NCBI RefSeq assembly: GCF_024399475.1
Contig: NZ_CP101620.1
Coordinates: forward strand, 1,717,608 to 1,781,607
Length of the DNA: 64,000 bases
Direction of reading: 5' to 3'
From: Allocoprobacillus halotolerans
GTDB lineage: Bacteria; Bacillota_I; Bacilli_A; Erysipelotrichales; Coprobacillaceae
Position numbers and translations under genes: made by a program. Below the pieces are notes generated by a model. That model was not told the origin of the DNA. It saw only the letters and a program-made list of their open reading frames with translations, and made no database searches. Below are positions 24,921 through 37,965 of the stretch, piece after piece. Each line of letters starts with the position of its first letter. Within the stretch, counting starts at the first letter, position 1.

Positions 24921-26734
24921 TTATCTTTTTCTATGCAAACTGGCTGTTATATAAATCGCATAAGAACCCTTTGCCTGTAAAAGCTCTTTGTGATTTCCCT
25001 GTTCAATGATATTGCCATTTTGCATAACAAGTATCAAATCAGCGTCTACAATCGTAGAAAGCCTGTGAGCTATCACAAAACTTGTACGATTTTTCATAAG
25101 TGCTTTCATTGCCTTACCAATCGCCATTTCCGTGCGTGTATCTACGGAAGAAGTCGCTTCGTCTAATATAAGTATCGCTGGATTACAGAGTACAACACGG
25201 GCGATCGTCAATAACTGCCTTTGACCTACGGAAATATTTTCAGCGTCATTAGTAAGAACCGTGTCATATCCGTCAGGCATTGTTCTGATAAAGAAATCAG
25301 CATGAGTCACTTTCATGCTTCTATGATTTCCTCTCTTGTTGCGTCAGGCTTTCCATAAGCAATATTTTCAGCAATCGTTCCCTCAAACAGCCATGTGTCC
25401 TGTAACACCATTCCAAAATGACTTCTTAATTCCGTACGTGTCATATCTTGTGTGCAGATACCGTCTAAAATAATATGTCCTGCACTGATTTCATAAAAAC
25501 GCATAAGGAGATTGATAATCGTTGTTTTTCCTGCACCAGTGCTTCCCACGATTGCAATTTTCTGTCCTGCCTTTGCACGAAAGCTAATATCCTGCATTAA
25601 AATTTTATCCTGCGAATAGCCAAAGCGTACATTCTGAAAACCAACATTGCCTTTTACATCTGTTAAGGTCATTTTATTTTCAATATCTGATACAAGTTCT
25701 TTTTCGTCTAAAAATTCATATACGCGTTCCACAGACGCCAGTGCTGACTGCATGGAATTAATCATATAAGACATTTCCGTAATCGGTTCGCCAACCTGAT
25801 TGACATATTGGAAAAATGCCTGAAAAACACCTGGCGTCATTTTTCCCTCAATCAGCATAAGCCCACCGAATACAGCAATCAGTATTTGCCCCAAACGATT
25901 GACAAGTCGAATCAGTGGATTGATTGCGTTCATGATGAAATCTGTCTTTCTTGTAGCTTTTGCCAGTTCTTCCGTAGCGTCATGTATCATTTTTGAGCTT
26001 TCTTTTTCATGATTGAACGCTTTGATGATAACACGTCCGCTGTATGCTTCCTCTATCACACCTGTGAGATTGCCTGTGCAACGTTGTCTTTCCGTTGCAT
26101 ACTGTAATGTCTTTTTCGCAACAATATTCGTTAAAAATAAGGAAATAGCTAAAAAGCCAAGAAATATCAAAGTTAGGCGGATACTAAATGAAAACATCAT
26201 TACTAGCGAACCGATAACTGTTCCCATCGCAGTCAAAAAGCGAAGTAACCCACTTTGCAAAGCTTCTGACATTTTATCAAGGTCATTCGTTGCACGGCTC
26301 ATCATCTCGCCAGTTTTATGATTGTCAAAATAAGCAAGCGGCAAGCGGTTTATTTTACTACTGATTTCTTTTCGCAACTGTAAATTCAGCTTTTCTGAAA
26401 AACTTGCCATTAAGAAGTTTTGCAAAGCATAAAAACCAGCACTTGCTAAATAAATGAGAAGAAGTATGGTCATCTGCATACCGCCAGCCTGCCATGTGAT
26501 ACGGAAAGCATATTCCTGACTCAAAGCCTGTTGAATGTTGCTCCAAATCAAATCAACGACCTTAGCACTGTACAAAGGTGCTATGATGGTAAAAAGCGTA
26601 TAAAATATAACGGATACCAAAACGACGATTAACCGTATCTTTTGTTTCATCATCGTGCCTAAGAAACGCCACATTGTATGTTTGGCATTTTTCATTTCAT
26701 AGGCTTCTTCAAATAGTTCTTGATTATTGTCCAT
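24921..26734 (-). CDS. ABC exporter subunit B (fused permease-ATPase), frameshifted
   Basis: An ABC transporter half of about 604 residues. An N-terminal six-helix exporter domain precedes an ATPase with Walker A GSTGAGKTT, signature ISVGQRQLL and Walker B ILILDEATSSVDTRTE (canonical Glu). The start ATG 26734 overlaps the end of the upstream subunit by 11 bases. GTG 26743 is less likely because it falls in the AAAGGCGG ribosome site. One base is missing between GAAGC and ATGAAAGTG (about 25315). Restoring it joins REEIIEA to KVTHADFFIRTMPDGYD. It works with the upstream half as a heterodimer. The drug or peptide substrate is unknown. Confidence 0.88.
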
Positions 26735-28457
26735 TCTTAACACCGCCTTTCATCTGTGAATTTGCTATATCACGATATACAGAGCAATGCTCCATAAGGT
26801 CATCGTGTGTACCTATTCCTACAATTTTTCCGTCATCAAGTACGACAATCTGTTCTGCGTGAAGAATCGTGCTGATTCTTTGTGCGATAATCAGAACCGC
26901 AGCATTTTTTGTTTCTTCTTCGAGAGCTTTTCTAAGAGCGGCGTCTGTCTTAAAATCCAGTGCCGAAAAACTGTCGTCAAAAATATATAAATCTGCCTTT
27001 TTCATCAAAGCACGGGCAATAGATAAACGCTGCTTTTGTCCTCCTGAAAAATTTGTGCCGCCTTGTGCCACATGAGAGAAAATACCGTCAGGCAGTGTGA
27101 AAACAAAATCAGATTGTGCAACCTTTAAGGTGTGCAACATTTCTTCCTGTGTGGCATTCTCGTTTCCATATCGAAGATTATCTGCAATCGTTCCAGAGAA
27201 CAGCCATGCCTTTTGTGGTACATAAGAAATGTGACCTCGTAATTCCTGCTGTGTCATATCCCGAATATCACAACCTTTTAACATGATTTTTCCTGCCGTA
27301 ACATCATGATAACGCAACAATAATTTCGCAATCGTTGTTTTTCCACTTCCTGTTCCGCCAATAACAGCAGTTGTCTGTCCTTTTCGGCAAACAAAGTTCA
27401 TTTTTGACAAGGTATCTTCGTCAGCGTCGCCAAAACGAAAGGTTGCATTTTCAAAGCGTACCATTTCATCTGTTGTTTCATCAAACGTTGTTTGTTCCTG
27501 CCCGTCTGCTATTTCGGGAGTATAGTTGATAATTTCGCCGATACGATTTAAACATACCTTTGCCCTCGGAAGCAATACCATGACCATTTGTGCCATGATG
27601 ATATAAAACAAAGTCAAAATAGCATATTCTGTCAATGCTGTAATATCGCCTATATTCATTGTACCGTCCGCGACAAAATTACCGCCAAAATAAAGAATGA
27701 GAACGATACAGATATTGATAGCGAACAAAGCTCAGCTATCCAAAAGCGAAAAAAGCTGGTTTGCTTTAATCGAAGCCTTTGCATAATCTTCAAAGGATTT
27801 GTTCATACGCTCTTGTTCATGCGGCTCTTTATTAAATGCTCTTATCACACGGACTCCCGTGATATTTTCACGCAAAACAACGTTCATTCTGTCAAGAAAT
27901 TTCTGTAATTTTGAAAATATGACAGAGGCTTTTTTAATAATGAACGAGGCAACTAGTACAACAAGAAACATTGCTCCTAAAACAAGAACCCCCATATCTT
28001 TGTTGATATTAAATGCAAAAACAATACCCATGATACACATGAACGGTACAGGGACAATCATCTGTATGCCGATCACAAATGCCTGCTGAATGATATTTGT
28101 ATCATTTAAAGTTCTGGTAATCATAGAGCCTGTTCCAAAGCGTTCAAAGTCAGAGGACGAAAAGGCAAGGGATTTATCGTAAACTTCATCACGGATATCT
28201 TTGCCGATTCTTGAGGATAGTTCCGCACAGAGCCAGCTTCCAAGCAATGCTCCTAAACCTGATAACACAGTAACCAATAACATAAACAATCCTTTTTGTA
28301 TCATCTGTTCAATCGTTCCGCCATTGACACCAATGTTTATCATATCAGCAGTAATCGTCGGTATCATCAAAGCACCGACCACATCAAAAATAACAACAAT
28401 TAAAGTAATTAAGCTCATTTTCCAGTAAGGCTTTAAAAAATGTAAAAAAACTTTCAT
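26724..28457 (-). CDS. ABC exporter subunit A (fused permease-ATPase), in-frame TGA
   Basis: An exporter half of about 577 residues encoded first after the MarR gene. Six transmembrane helices precede Walker A GGTGSGKTT, signature FSGGQKQRLS and Walker B LYIFDDSFSALD. The Asp in place of the catalytic Glu marks the degenerate site usual in one half of heterodimeric exporters. A TGA at 27734-27732 interrupts the frame between QLFSLLDS and ALFAINICIVLILYFGG with no frame change. It is therefore a substitution or substitution error, unlike most breaks here. If real, subunit A is lost and the pump dead. It lies 18 bases after marR on the same transcript. Confidence 0.85.
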
Positions 28458-29982: not shown

Positions 29983-31056
29983 ATGATGCTTTGTTACTAT
30001 GTGGAATTTCCAACAAAACACTTAACGCAAGATATACTTATTCATATGTTATTGGATTGGTTAGAACATTCTAAAAATAAAATGGAAGGTCTAAGTTATG
30101 ATGGACGTATACCTTTTCAATATCAACTTGATCAAAAATTATTAAATATTGAAATTTTTGAGCAACAGTATTTGACTTTATTTTTTTCAACAAAAGATAA
30201 TCATAAAAATACACATTTTATTGTAGAAGTTATTTATGATTTTGTGAATGAAAAAATACATTTACGTTTTTTTAAAGAAACATTTAATGAATCACGTTAT
30301 ATATCAGCTGTTTCCATTCCATCTTTATTTAAAACCATTATCACATCTCCTTATATACAAAGTGATGTTTATCCTTTTCAAGCAAAAGCCCATCGTTTAA
30401 AAGACATTGATATAATAAAAGAAATCAAAACACAGACACCGCTTATTTATATGCGTACTAAATTTATAGATGCGAATCAATTAGCTAGAGAAGTTTTAGG
30501 ATTGGCACATGTTTGTTATTGTCCACGACAAAAGGAAGAAGGCTGTATAGAGATTATTGATGAACATGGTAGTCGTTTTTATCCATTAAATAAAAAGATT
30601 GCTTACATTCATCAAATACATGAAATCAATGAATTATTGAGAAATGCTATGATTGAACGTTATAAAGATACGATGCCTTCATATGAAACATTATATCAAA
30701 ACTGGGTTTATCACCAACAAAATTCAGCTATTAAAAACAGTCAGGAATATCAAGAAGAATTTAAAGAAGAAATTAAACGTCGTCAACAAGAAATACTTGA
30801 GTTGAAAGAAATTTATAATATGTTATTACAAGATATTGAAGAATTGAAAGTAAAGAATTCTAAATTATCTCAGATTCATTATCATCAAGAGTCTTCATTG
30901 TTATGTATTGATGATATTGATAAAGTTTCAAAATATCAAAAGAGTCTTTTACAATATATTCAAAACAAAGCACATAATTTAGAAACGACACATGAAATTT
31001 ATCGTCGTTTAGATATTTTACATGCGTTAATTAAAAAGAATGGAGGGAAGTTATGA
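29983..31056 (+). CDS. Uncharacterised coiled-coil protein A of a two-gene pair
   Basis: About 357 residues, with AAGGAAG before ATG 29983/29986. I do not recognise the family. The N-terminal ~140 residues are mixed alpha/beta. A middle block, TPLIYMRTKFIDANQLAREV and then LGLAHVCY, has a clear counterpart in protein B (LPVLYINYEQVVDPIYLANQ, then LRGIAYVMY), so the two are related. A long charged coiled coil follows (EYQEEFKEEIKRRQQEILEL and beyond) before a helical C-terminus. There is no signal peptide, membrane helix or nucleotide-binding motif. It overlaps gene B by 17 bases. A structural or defence-type complex is possible. The function is unknown. Confidence 0.75.
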   Translation: MMLCYYVEFPTKHLTQDILIHMLLDWLEHSKNKMEGLSYDGRIPFQYQLDQKLLNIEIFEQQYLTLFFSTKDNHKNTHFIVEVIYDFVNEKIHLRFFKETFNESRYISAVSIPSLFKTIITSPYIQSDVYPFQAKAHRLKDIDIIKEIKTQTPLIYMRTKFIDANQLAREVLGLAHVCYCPRQKEEGCIEIIDEHGSRFYPLNKKIAYIHQIHEINELLRNAMIERYKDTMPSYETLYQNWVYHQQNSAIKNSQEYQEEFKEEIKRRQQEILELKEIYNMLLQDIEELKVKNSKLSQIHYHQESSLLCIDDIDKVSKYQKSLLQYIQNKAHNLETTHEIYRRLDILHALIKKNGGKL

Positions 31057-32326
31057 AATCATTTTCTACTTATTTAAGGTTGCGGAAAAATGGAGCATCT
31101 CTCAATTTGTCAAATCTTTATTTCAAGTTTACGATATCCCGTATGAAGATATCGATTTTCATCAAAAAAAGATTGAAGAACGTGATTTTGATATTTATCA
31201 ATATCCTCAAGATCATAGTGTTGTTGTGCATTTGTATCATCGTATGGAGTATATCTATAACGAACAAGAAGGTGGATTGTGTATTCATAATGATGGATAT
31301 CAAAAGGGATATCGCTATATTGATGAATTGTTAAGGTGCCATTTGATTAAAGATGATGGTATACCACTTACAAATCAGCCTATTATGATTAGTCAAGACA
31401 ATTACCAGCAAGTTATAAATTGGTTAGAAATAAATAAACTATTACCTGTTTTATATATTAATTATGAACAAGTTGTTGATCCTATTTATTTGGCAAATCA
31501 ACTAAGGGGTATTGCTTATGTGATGTATGAAGAAAATAAAGACATCAATCAACGGATGAAAAAACAATGTCAAAATATACCACTTCATGGACGTATTATG
31601 ATTGATTATTTAAATCATGATTATAAGGCTTATCGTCTTTCTAAAAAAGAATCACAAGATCAGTTACAACAACGTATTTTGCATAAAATGAGTCTGTTTT
31701 TAAAACAAAGACGTTATGGTAATCGTTATGATTTTCATTATTTACAAAAAAGTTATTTAGATAGTTTAAAAAGTTTGGCTCAGGATTATGAAAAACAAAC
31801 CATTGATGAGTTGGGAAAGGAAATTGATAAATTAGAAGAAGAAAAGAGAAAATATTGTGATTTGATTCGTCAATTGGAAAAAGAGTCAAGTTTATTACAG
31901 ACACAAAATGATATTTTAGAAGAAGAACTTTCTTTTCAGGAATGTTATACTATTTTAGATAAAGGGGATATCAAAGAATATTACCAAGCAGAACAAAAAG
32001 ATGTCCTTTTAGATATGTTAGAGGATGATGTGAAAAAGAAAAATGTTGGGGATGTGGATATAAATATATTGGAAGATATTTTAAAGCAGAATCCAAAAGA
32101 TGGAACAAGGGATGAATATTTAGAGAAGATTTTTAGAGTTTTGATTAGTAGCTATGATATTCATAGATTAAAGAAATATGGGATTTATATAAAAGGTGAT
32201 AAAAGCAAACATCCTATTGCTGTGTTTTTTGATGATCCTAGATATCAATCAACGATTTCTTCTACACCAAGTGATCAAAATGCTTGTCGCCAGATTTATA
32301 GACAGTTTAGAAAATTTTTCTTTTAA
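31040..32326 (+). CDS. Uncharacterised coiled-coil protein B of a two-gene pair
   Basis: About 428 residues. It shares with protein A the block LPVLYINYEQ...LANQLRGIAYVMYEE (about residues 135-170), then a coiled coil (IDELGKEIDKLEEEKRKYCD region, about 260-310). The C-terminal domain ends KHPIAVFFDDPRYQSTISST followed by PSDQNACRQI. That KHP...TPSD pattern is reminiscent of small HicA/dsRBD-like folds, but this is only a resemblance. The start is uncertain. ATG 31040 is in frame, but the best ribosome site (GGAGGGAAG) points to ATG 31053 in another frame, so one base may be missing close to the start. The pair is a self-contained transcription unit. Confidence 0.72.
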   Translation: MEGSYEIIFYLFKVAEKWSISQFVKSLFQVYDIPYEDIDFHQKKIEERDFDIYQYPQDHSVVVHLYHRMEYIYNEQEGGLCIHNDGYQKGYRYIDELLRCHLIKDDGIPLTNQPIMISQDNYQQVINWLEINKLLPVLYINYEQVVDPIYLANQLRGIAYVMYEENKDINQRMKKQCQNIPLHGRIMIDYLNHDYKAYRLSKKESQDQLQQRILHKMSLFLKQRRYGNRYDFHYLQKSYLDSLKSLAQDYEKQTIDELGKEIDKLEEEKRKYCDLIRQLEKESSLLQTQNDILEEELSFQECYTILDKGDIKEYYQAEQKDVLLDMLEDDVKKKNVGDVDINILEDILKQNPKDGTRDEYLEKIFRVLISSYDIHRLKKYGIYIKGDKSKHPIAVFFDDPRYQSTISSTPSDQNACRQIYRQFRKFFF

Positions 32327-32834: not shown

Positions 32835-33577
32835 ATGGATAATAGAACAAAAGTAAAGTATCTACGTATAGGCATGATAGTTGGATATGCATTATTTGCA
32901 ATATTATTTATTTTTTATATGCTATGATAGCAGGACGTATAACAGCACCTCTTGGTACAGATGAGTGGAGGGAACAATTTAATTATAGACATCAATTGAA
33001 TGTTAATATGCCTATATTTTTTGCTATAGGTTGCGTAGGGTGTATTATAGGAAATTTATGTTATAGACCATATAAAAAGTTAAAAAGTGGAATACAGGGC
33101 GAAGAAAGAACTCTTAACATTTTGAAAAATCTTCCAATAAACTATACTGTTCTATCAAATGTTCAAATTGAATATGATGGGAAAAGAAGTGAAATTGATA
33201 ATTTGATTATTAGCACAAGAGGATTAATTATTGTTGAAACTAAAAATTATAAAGGTACGACAACTGGAAAGGAAAATGATTCAGAGTGGATAATTAGCAA
33301 AACTTCATCAAAGGGAAATACATTTCAAGATTCTATCAAAAACCCAATAAAACAAGTCAAAAGACAAACTTATATTCTTTCTCAAATACTAAAGGAAAAT
33401 AGCATTTATTGTTGGATTGATGGATATGTATATATGGCGGGAGGACAATGTCATACTGATTCCGATAAAGTATATACTGAGGAAAGAAAACTTCTTCAAA
33501 TCATTATTGATTCAGGAAGAGATAATGCATTGAGTGATGAGGATATGAGAAGAATTCAACAAGTGTTAAAATTATAA
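32835..33577 (+). CDS. NERD (nuclease-related) domain membrane protein, frameshifted
   Basis: About 247 residues when one A is restored near 32923 (FYML joined to MIAGRITAPLG). Two N-terminal membrane helices (about residues 11-35 and 60-78) precede a cytosolic NERD domain with GIQGEERTLNILKNLP, EIDNLIISTRGLIIVETKNY and a C-terminal helical tail. The D...ExK arrangement is that of the PD-(D/E)XK-like nuclease fold, so the domain may cut nucleic acid. NERD proteins are frequent in plasmids and defence regions. GTGAGGGGG precedes the ATG. It follows the coiled-coil pair by 500 bases and has its own -10 box, so it is not clearly in the same operon. Confidence 0.78.
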
Positions 33578-33654: not shown

Positions 33655-33755
33655 AAGTGACCTCCTACTTGCCAAAACGTGGATTACGATTCATAATATA
33701 AATGCAAAAAACAAATTATGAAAGTCGATACCATAACGACAATAGGAGGTCACTT
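33655..33755 (+). promoter_or_regulatory. Hairpin sequestering the IS110 transposase ribosome site / candidate guide RNA region
   Basis: AAGTGACCTCCTA (33655-33667) is the perfect inverse of TAGGAGGTCACTT (33743-33755), whose AGGAGG is the transposase ribosome site. The 75-base interval between them could fold internally. If transcribed together, the stem would hide the ribosome site. IS110 elements are known to encode a guide (bridge) RNA next to the transposase, so this may be part of it. Confidence 0.6.
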
Positions 33756-34870
33756 ATGAATAGTATAGTTTATATTGGAATGGATGTCCATAAAAATTCT
33801 TATAGTTTATGTGCAGTAGATGGAGAAACTGGTGAAATTTTAGGAGAAACTAAGATTTCTCCCGATGTTGATCTTATTATCAAATTTATCAATAACGCCA
33901 AGAAAAAGCAAACGAACCTGATGCAGATGTTCTTGCTGGTTATGAAGCAGGATGTTTAGGATACTCATTATACTGGCAATTACAAGCAAAAGGTATCAAT
34001 TGTGATATATTGGCACCAACAACCATGCAGCGTTCAGCCAAGAACAAGGTTGTCAAAAATGATAGAAGAGATGCTAGAAACATTGCGACAAATTTAAACA
34101 ATGGAACATATAAAGCTGTGTATGTTCCACAGGATCAGGATGTAGAAATCAAAGAATATATAAGAATGATTGATGATTTTAAAGATGAAACCAAGAGAAT
34201 CAAATAGCATATCAATGCATATGTATTGAGATTAGGACATCGATATGAGGGGAAATCACATTGGATTCCCACACACATCAAATGGTTGAAAGAGCTAGAG
34301 CTAAAGGATATGTATAGAGAGATATTAGATGAGTATCTTTCACATCTAGAAGATCTCGAAGCAAGAATCGAAAGATTTCAATCTAAACTAGAAGAATTAT
34401 CTCATGAAGAAGCATATGAAGATAAGATAGGGCAATTGCGCTGCTTAAAGGGTGTAGATACCTCATCAGCGATGATCTTTCATGTAGAAGTATCAGATTT
34501 CAATAGATTTCCAAATGCCAAAGCCTTTGCATCATTTTGTGGATTGACACCATCTGAGGATTCAAGTGGAGACAAGACAAAGAGATTAAGTATTACCAAA
34601 CAGGGAAATACACATTTAAGAAAAACGTTGATTGAGTGTTCGCAGGTGCTTGTAAGAGGCACAGTTGGAAAAAAAGGGAAAAAATTGAAATCAAAGCAGA
34701 ATGGTCAGGATGTAAAGGTCATAGATTATGCAGACAAGGCAGTACTAAGATTGCAGAAGAAATATCATAGAATGATATTGAGAGGCGTTAATAGAAATAT
34801 AGCGATAACAGCAGTAGCAAGAGAGCTTGCATGCTTCATATGGGGAATTGAAACAGGACATATAGCATGA
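33756..34870 (+). CDS. IS110-family DEDD transposase, broken by one indel and one stop
   Basis: About 371 residues when read through. The N-terminal RuvC-like DEDD domain starts VYIGMDVHKNSYSLCAVDGE with the first catalytic Asp. KNKVVKNDRRDARNIA carries the later acidic pair. The C-terminal transposase_20 domain shows LRCLKGVDTSSAMIFHVEVS and ASFCGLTPSEDSSGDK, and the catalytic Ser is expected nearby. One A is missing near 33912 (joining KKKQ to NEPDADVLAGYEAG). A TAG at 34205-34207 replaces what should be Gln in RIKQHINAYVLRLGHRY. The stop needs a base change, so the copy may be inactive. AGGAGG lies 6 bases before ATG 33756. Confidence 0.87.
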
Positions 34871-35667: not shown

Positions 35668-37965
35668 ATGGATAAAAAAGCATTAACAAATTATTATAAG
35701 TCAAAAATAGATGAGGAAATTATCAATCGATTAAGAAATCAAAACGAAAGGATTCTAAATATTCAATATGATAATTGTTTCAAATTAATTTTAAATTTTA
35801 AATTTGAATTATTAAATACTTTAAAATATCAAATTATTAATTTTGATGAATTAATTGATAATACCAGTACTCATAATGATAAACCACTCCCAATTATGCA
35901 AGAATTATTTTCTAAATTATGTTCTTGGTATTTTTCATCGTTAATAGGTTCTTTGTATTTAGGAGCTGATCTTTTACTAGAATTAGCTTATACATTATTC
36001 AAATATAAGCTTTCTCAAAGAGAAACAGAATTGATATTGGGAAATTTGAAACCATACCATAAAAAACATAAAGAATATAAAAAAGTAAAAAAATTATTAT
36101 TGTAAGAGATATTAACGCTCTAAATGATGACCAAACAAATTTATTGAATTTTATTGAATACTTAATTCATGAAAAATATATATGTAATGCCCTTTTGATA
36201 AAAACATCTTCACTGCCATTTGAAGATATAAACTATAAATTTATATTAGACCTTAATGAAATCAGAACCGTTTTTAAATTCACTTTAATAAACAAAAATA
36301 ATATCGAAATATTTAAAAATTTAGATATTGATTTTTTTCCAATGTTTTATTCGTGTTTACAAAATAATAAAGATTTATCAAATGAAGAGCTCTTTAAAAA
36401 AATAATTTTTAATATTATTACTAACTCAAAAACAAAGATTGCAAAACAAGATTTATATAATTTTTTTAAATTATGCTCTTATTTGTTTCCGTTTTTTAGT
36501 CAACGTGATTTAGAAAATAACTTTAATAAATTATTGAGTAATATTGTTTTATATTTAAATGATGGTAAAAAAGCAAATATTTTAGAATCTACTGATAAGG
36601 GCTATTATTTTACAGAAATTTATATCAGAAATTTCTTTTTAAATGGTGTTCCCAATATGTTAGATTCTACTCAAAAAGATAATCTATATAAGTATTTACA
36701 AACTACATATCCAACGCAATATTTCAATTTAGCTATTGCTTCAATTAAACTTAATCAACCAACATCAGAAATATATTCACGTATTCTCATTGCATATTAT
36801 TACAAAGATGAATTAGCAAATGATGAAAAAAGCATATTAATAAAACAAATTAACAAAGAATACAATACAAATTTATTTACATATATTAACAATATTGAAA
36901 AAAATATAAATATAAATCTAAACATCAGATTATTACTGATTTCTAATGATTATTCTTGCTTAACTATTGCAGGAAAACTTTCGTGCTTGGGGATAATTTT
37001 ACCAAAAGCATACGAATTTTTTGGTGAAGAAAATATTAATATTTTTAATCAATATGAAGAAATTTTAAATTCTACAAAACTTTTTTCTAACCTGAACAAT
37101 CATTTTTATCCTTATATAATTGATTTTATTATTTTATCAACCGCTATAGAATTGGATCAAAGACAAAGTAACATTATTAATAGACTTACTGCATTGATAG
37201 AATCTAATCAAGAGGAAATATCTAAAAAATACAAACTTAAGTTCTTAAGACTATCAAATTTAATCTCTTCTGATCCTGAAAAATTATTGAAATATGCCTT
37301 TGATATTACAATCAACAATAAAATTGAACATGAAATTTTTAGAACTAATTACTCCGTAAGTTTGCTCTTTTCTTCAAAATATGAGAAAGCTTTATCTTTA
37401 TTCGAAGATAAAGATAAAATTTTAATGAAATCAATAAACGAAGACATTTATATTAGTTTGGAAAACAATAAATATGTTACTAAAAGCTTATTATATCAAA
37501 CAAAAAGAAATCCATTTAAAAGAATTTTAAAACAGATTTCTATTAATAATCAAAATAGTGATTGGTTTATTATAAAAAATAATCAAATAGCTCATGATAT
37601 TCTATTAGGTAATAAAAACCTTGAAAAAAACATAAAATTAATTAATGAAATAGAACAATCTCAAGACTGTTTTCATATTTTTTCTTACAATATAATTTAT
37701 TAACACACGCATATATTAATAAAAATATAGATTTGTTTGATGAGTTATATCAAAAGATTAAGGTACCAACATTGTTAAAAGATTATAAAGATTATTTTGC
37801 TGATAGATTGAATAAATTAAATTCATTGAAAGAAAAGAAAATCTTTATGAATACTCATGCTTTAAAAAAGAATTTGAATTGATTGATGAGAGATACGAGA
37901 CTTTACGTATTGGTCACTTTAAGGAAATTGTTTTATTTGGATTGATTGAAAGATGGTATGAATAA
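35668..37965 (+). CDS. Large unrecognised helical protein, possible STAND/AAA-like NTPase relic, three indels
   Basis: About 765 residues once single bases are restored at the A run near 36099 (KKIIIVRDINALNDDQTNLL), the T run near 37680 (IFLQYNLLTHAYINKN) and the A run near 37845 (KEKENLYEYSCFKKEF). It ends at WYE, stop 37963-37965. IIIVRDINALNDDQ followed by FIEYLIHEKYICNALLIKTS looks like a Walker B strand with its sensor, as in STAND or AAA ATPases. No Walker A is present upstream and the start lacks a close ribosome site. The rest is repeated amphipathic helices resembling TPR-type arrays. It is very AT-rich. The function is unknown. A defence or regulatory role is only suggested by architecture and setting. 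Confidence 0.6.

Follow-up and report, generated by a model that had tools for sequence, protein, structure and literature searches.

We report two adjacent genes of Allocoprobacillus halotolerans, here named A and B, that may encode a two-subunit derivative of a HEC-07-like defense candidate, arising from an old duplication of a single-gene protein (S), with B as the effector and A as a partner lacking the effector domain. We hold this reading tentatively. It draws on homology, domain layout in predicted models, gene pairing, an ATGA overlap, co-inheritance, and purifying selection, together with the mobile-element and defense-associated setting of S. The pair lies in a 64,000-nucleotide stretch of contig NZ_CP101620.1, referred to here as “the window,” for which a preliminary description had been made from the sequence alone.

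The two same-strand genes recognized in that description at positions 29983 to 32326 are present as open reading frames of 357 aa (A) and 428 aa (B). Gene A (29983 to 31056, plus strand) is laid out, by its whole-length profile match to S and by a structural model of S, as a beta-rich N-terminal domain, a thioredoxin-fold-like domain, a coiled coil, and an RRxDI helical end, without a HicA-like domain; the thioredoxin-fold-like block, with TPLIYM...LAREVLGLAHV, falls at approximately 30432 to 30700 (plus strand, placed by A-B alignment and the S model). The uninterrupted frame of B (31040 to 32326, plus strand) contains the corresponding block, with LPVLYI...LANQLRGIAYV, at approximately 31373 to 31710 (B model and alignment), a long coiled coil (helix 232 to 298 of the B model) at 31733 to 31934, and a HicA-like C-terminal domain (KHP...DDPRYQSTISSTPSD) at 32156 to 32323 (profile matches and alignment), all on the plus strand.

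In seven complete pairs (genomes G001, G002, G003, G004, G011, G015, and G026), the stop of A and the start of B share a 4-nucleotide ATGA overlap, and B begins with MKSFSTYL, MKHLSTL, or MNYLSTKL. The window also has an ATGA-type start of B, at 31053 (gene B from this start, 31053 to 32326, plus strand), and one base is absent near 31077 to 31085, so that the conserved B frame is lost by frameshift in this assembly and only the start at 31040 stays open. The gene overlap described earlier therefore stands as the 4-nucleotide ATGA of relatives, whereas the start at 31040 is simply the remaining open frame, relatives starting at the equivalent of 31053. The single promoter proposed for both genes fared less well: a promoter scan performed at chance level (22 found versus 27 expected), and the operon reading is based instead on the ATGA overlap.

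S is related to both A and B and is 460 to 505 aa long. BLASTP of window A against window B gave no match (E = 0.62), although a profile-profile comparison of the two was well beyond chance (E = 1.4e−14 over 228 columns), and thus the common central motif noted from the sequence is real. Both proteins match S over their whole lengths in profile-profile comparison (A, E = 4e−28 over 342 columns; B, E = 6e−41 over 421 columns), which bears out the proposal that A and B are paralogues, explains it by duplication of the S family, and makes a single-gene protein of a catalogued defense-candidate type the likely ancestor. In the alignment, the HicA-like domain is absent from A and part of the front is absent from B. 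The A and B clades are well supported in a phylogenetic tree (0.998 and 0.984, respectively), their branching order within the genus is the same, and A and B appear as sisters among S proteins with weak support (0.67). The simplest reading of these sequence relationships would be one duplication before the three genera carrying the pair parted, followed by joint inheritance of A and B; alternatively, the two may stem from distinct S genes. Searches of A and B against Pfam, NCBIfam, and PHROGs gave chance-level or coiled-coil matches, except for phrog_2053 on the C-terminus of B, and A and B themselves fit no named family, as the preliminary description had stated.

The sole named match of S is HEC-07 (PADLOC-DB v2.0.0, PDLC04158-04161), a predicted Hma-embedded single-gene defense candidate. 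The match covers profile positions 39 to 399 of 553, with E values down to 8.9e−15, and most members of S tested gave E values of 1e−7 to 1e−14 at low bit scores (20 to 53). Like HEC-07, S is a single gene, accessory, and defense-associated; unlike HEC-07, A and B are two genes joined by the ATGA overlap, and the pair falls outside a single-gene definition. A itself matched HEC-07 over 26 aa (E = 0.0058), and B matched none of the HEC-07 profiles; by sequence, A and B would belong with HEC-07 via S only. In the literature searched, we found no mention of HEC-07 by name and no published test of it. According to a paper on archaeal immunity, several Hma-embedded candidates, HEC-06 included, have been shown to be active, and most related ones are yet to be tested (PMC12988326). 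Weak matches of S to LmuB of Lamassu and to other coiled-coil defense proteins (E = 2e−4) fall over the coiled coil and the helices that follow it; such matches are usual for coiled coils, and neither A nor B nor S showed an ATPase or SMC signature.

An AlphaFold2 model of S built on 36 sequences (mean pLDDT, 83.8) predicts a beta-rich region at residues 1 to 103, a block with the order beta-alpha-beta-alpha-beta-alpha-beta-beta-alpha at approximately residues 118 to 260, then a long coiled coil followed by a helical linker that carries EFYPGEIKD and RRxDV, and finally a C-terminal domain of alpha-beta-beta-beta-alpha order. The motif shared by A and B, (L/I)Y(I/M)...LA..(L/V).G(L/I)A(H/Y)V, corresponds to strand 2, helix 2, and strand 3 of the block. 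In VIA-align comparisons with thioredoxins, the S block gave Z = 10.5 (rmsd, 2.8; 106 residues aligned) and the B model gave Z = 10.4 (rmsd, 2.8; 100 aligned), two results that are not independent given that the models share most of their alignment. The block thus has the same predicted topology as thioredoxins (rmsd of 2.6 to 2.9 over about 100 to 106 residues), an assignment that belongs to predicted models and for which the best Foldseek E value was 0.026. Foldseek searches of PDB and viral libraries gave no E value below 0.001, and searching PDB sequences with the profile of S and with its C-terminus returned coiled coils or no match. Where CxxC would lie, as the second helix begins, no cysteine is conserved among the 36 S proteins, so this would be at best a redox-dead thioredoxin-like fold, and a redox thioredoxin was ruled out.

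The HicA-like C-terminus attributed to B from the sequence is weak but real (PADLOC HicA-like, E = 0.024; phrog_2053, E = 4e−4). The same end of S matches PADLOC HicA-like (PDLC02910) with E values down to 6e−7 and phrog_2053 at 2e−11, and the C-termini of B and S match each other by hhalign at 1.8e−13. All of the 36 S and 8 B proteins compared share one histidine (His 391 in B). As in the HicA mRNA interferase/dsRBD fold (PF07927), the predicted order is alpha-beta-beta-beta-alpha. The invariant histidine stands in a G-K-H motif, which falls on the G-S-H of HicA in an alignment with true HicA, but that alignment is not significant (hhalign E = 0.019). Unlike HicA, the domain is fused to a long multidomain protein, and it departs from the HicA motif in the latter's second half. 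The Pfam HicA_toxin model gave no hit to A or B or to any of five S proteins at E values up to 10 or 1, and A matched neither HicB nor another antitoxin; with no HicB, a HicAB module was ruled out. The HicA-like domain (residues about 440 to 502 of L052 10001-11506) apparently also exists as a stand-alone phage protein of 64 to 72 aa (phrog_2053), and the best viral Foldseek hint was a 64-aa phage protein (BFVD A0A2U7NBJ7), which we take to cover the C-terminal domain.

Beyond the pair, S has a patchy distribution in Bacillota and was found in three further genera of the same order. The named genome collection yielded 55 occurrences of S, most of them in gut Bacillota, along with a Streptococcus, an Ancylobacter, and a member of the Lentisphaerae. 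At least partial matches to S are present in 34 of 5,426 complete Escherichia coli genomes. There, S lies within lambdoid prophages between ren and ybcN, on the strand opposite the nin genes (L161 9788-11206, L160 8708-10126, L162 9788-11206, and L157 9838-11256, all reversed), where it is 472 aa long and likely a moron; in another setting, its neighbors are an integrase and a tRNA-Phe gene. Small plasmids of Klebsiella and related bacteria also carry S. On 5.9-kb mobilizable Klebsiella ColRNAI plasmids, it follows a RelE/ParE-type pair and is larger than any other annotated gene (L154 2952-4373). A Citrobacter plasmid with this replicon type (L155) has a shortened S near ISKpn6 and KPC-3. Viral contigs yielded seven S genes, with no A and no B; one S follows two large serine-recombinase-like genes, and another directly follows genes read from the sequence as McrB, McrC, and a Vsr-type endonuclease (L153 295-4503). 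Phage records had no match to B, S, or the Klebsiella S.

No conserved partner gene for S was found among its neighbors. We pooled 141 neighbor proteins from about 42 S loci for a PADLOC scan and compared the top 25 families with those of 141 control proteins taken arbitrarily from five genomes, a small set from genomes that differ from those with S. Among the families listed, S neighbors matched WYL, type IV REase, PDC-S01, HEC-05, HEC-06, PARIS AriA, pAgo, and DpdF models, whereas the control proteins matched mainly ABC-type (mad), reverse transcriptase, and methyltransferase models. The defense spectrum beside S is therefore different from and richer than that of the control, a contrast that is qualitative and carries no enrichment value. 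The prophages, plasmids, McrBC genes, and defense neighbors point to a role for S in defense or in conflict between mobile elements.

The A-B pair itself is distributed otherwise. It was found in all five genomes of the genus examined and in two further genera. A profile of A, run against 395 genomes of the class, recovered six true A genes, each adjoining B, plus one S. Homologues that never pair had been named beforehand as a refuting outcome; instead, each true A in the genomes sampled adjoins B, the other matches being the single-gene S. A B- or S-like gene is present in 15 of 148 relatives, which is too patchy for an ordinary housekeeping complex, and that candidate was ruled out. Within the genus, dN/dS is 0.13 to 0.31 for both A and B, indicating purifying selection. 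The preliminary description had placed the pair in a variable island beside a NERD protein. The variable island was not borne out: in the window, G003, and G004 (at least three of the five genus genomes), the pair is a stable locus upstream of the same exopolysaccharide cluster. The NERD gene seen in the window is absent from beside the pair in relatives. In the other genera, the neighbors are ordinary genes (GntR-aminotransferase, CstA, PheT, and a HIGH nucleotidyltransferase), and no defense genes were seen beside the pair there except for weak mad models in one genome. This stable place and these ordinary neighbors make the A-B pair a resident rather than an island passenger.

Several nearby genes are described here in their own right. 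The NERD-domain protein of the window (32924 to 33577; Pfam, 3.4e−24) weakly resembles PglW and Mokosh MkoA in their NERD parts. Two adjacent genes at 35668 to 37703 encode proteins of 145 and 519 aa, the larger without a Pfam or PADLOC match. In two genus genomes, a protein with AAA-ATPase-like and PDDEXK_9 parts adjoins the pair (L095 7381-8955 and L096 11096-12649).

B is damaged in 4 of 10 A-B loci and A in 1. The damage to B takes the form of the frameshift at the gene start in the window, a stop 13 residues before the end in G004, a frameshift at approximately residue 65 in G034, and, in G031, contigs that break within B, with foreign sequence there; A is damaged in G034 by extra sequence near its end. 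The pairs in G001, G002, G003, G011, G015, and G026 are undamaged. Elsewhere in the window, two ABC transporter genes are split (24921 to 28457), one by an in-frame stop and the next by a frameshift, and an IS110 element is broken (33702 to 34870). The occurrence of broken ABC transporters, IS110, and B in one stretch suggests an error-rich assembly or local decay. That the copy bearing the putative effector is so often lost fits a costly function, with some cases perhaps being assembly faults.

We propose, with the same reserve as for the two-subunit reading itself, the following chain of events. S, with its beta-rich N-terminus, cysteine-less thioredoxin fold, coiled coil, and HicA-like end, would have been duplicated, and the work then divided, A keeping the N-terminal part and losing the HicA-like end while B kept that end and shortened its front. 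A and B would bind as a heteromer via their coiled coils, the front half of A/B would sense a phage or plasmid cue, and the HicA-like domain of B would act as an effector on RNA or DNA, probably RNA, and stop the infected cell. Taken by itself, action of B as an RNase is doubtful. The anti-phage role first proposed for the pair gains indirect backing only, through S (the HEC-07 match, prophages, small plasmids, McrBC, and defense neighbors); the neighbors of the pair itself are ordinary genes.

Pairing and damage also bear on a different account, to which we give a low probability, in which the pair is toxin-antitoxin-like: B would be a HicA-like toxin that A neutralizes via the matching domains, serving self-maintenance or stress rather than action against phage. 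The tight 4-nucleotide overlap, the obligate pairing, the presence of an effector-type domain on B only, and the breakage of B in more loci than A all agree with such an arrangement. However, S has all of these domains on one chain and no partner, so any toxicity would be controlled within the protein; A is unlike HicB or any known antitoxin; and broken B beside intact A is also expected from random loss of a costly defense gene.

Similarly unlikely, in our estimation, is co-option of the pair for a host task, for example, scaffolding or regulation connected with the adjacent surface-polysaccharide cluster. Presence throughout the genus genomes examined, the position upstream of that cluster, purifying selection, and the ordinary neighbors in other genera would suit such a task, but those neighbors are unrelated to polysaccharide, and frequent damage to B ill suits a needed host gene. 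Less probable still is that the pair is a decaying relic with no present function in the window genome. The 1-nucleotide frameshift at the start of B, together with the split ABC transporters and broken IS110, would be expected of a relic; against this, dN/dS is 0.15 to 0.31 when the window copy is among the sequences compared, such a cluster of broken genes may indicate assembly errors, and undamaged pairs persist in six other genomes.

Under the two-subunit reading, A-B is a two-gene variant of a HEC-07-like candidate and not a new kind of system by itself. That a dedicated sensor (A) and a dedicated effector (B) form a two-subunit immune complex that has a redox-dead thioredoxin fold as its base and differs from every defense system described strikes us as rather unlikely. 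The analysis gives a domain layout and a candidate effector residue for the widespread HEC-07-like S, which was hitherto a profile name alone and which is carried by prophages of E. coli and by very small plasmids of Klebsiella. The two-gene variant is useful because it separates the halves of an S-type protein, and the prophage copies of S would be easy to test in E. coli K-12.
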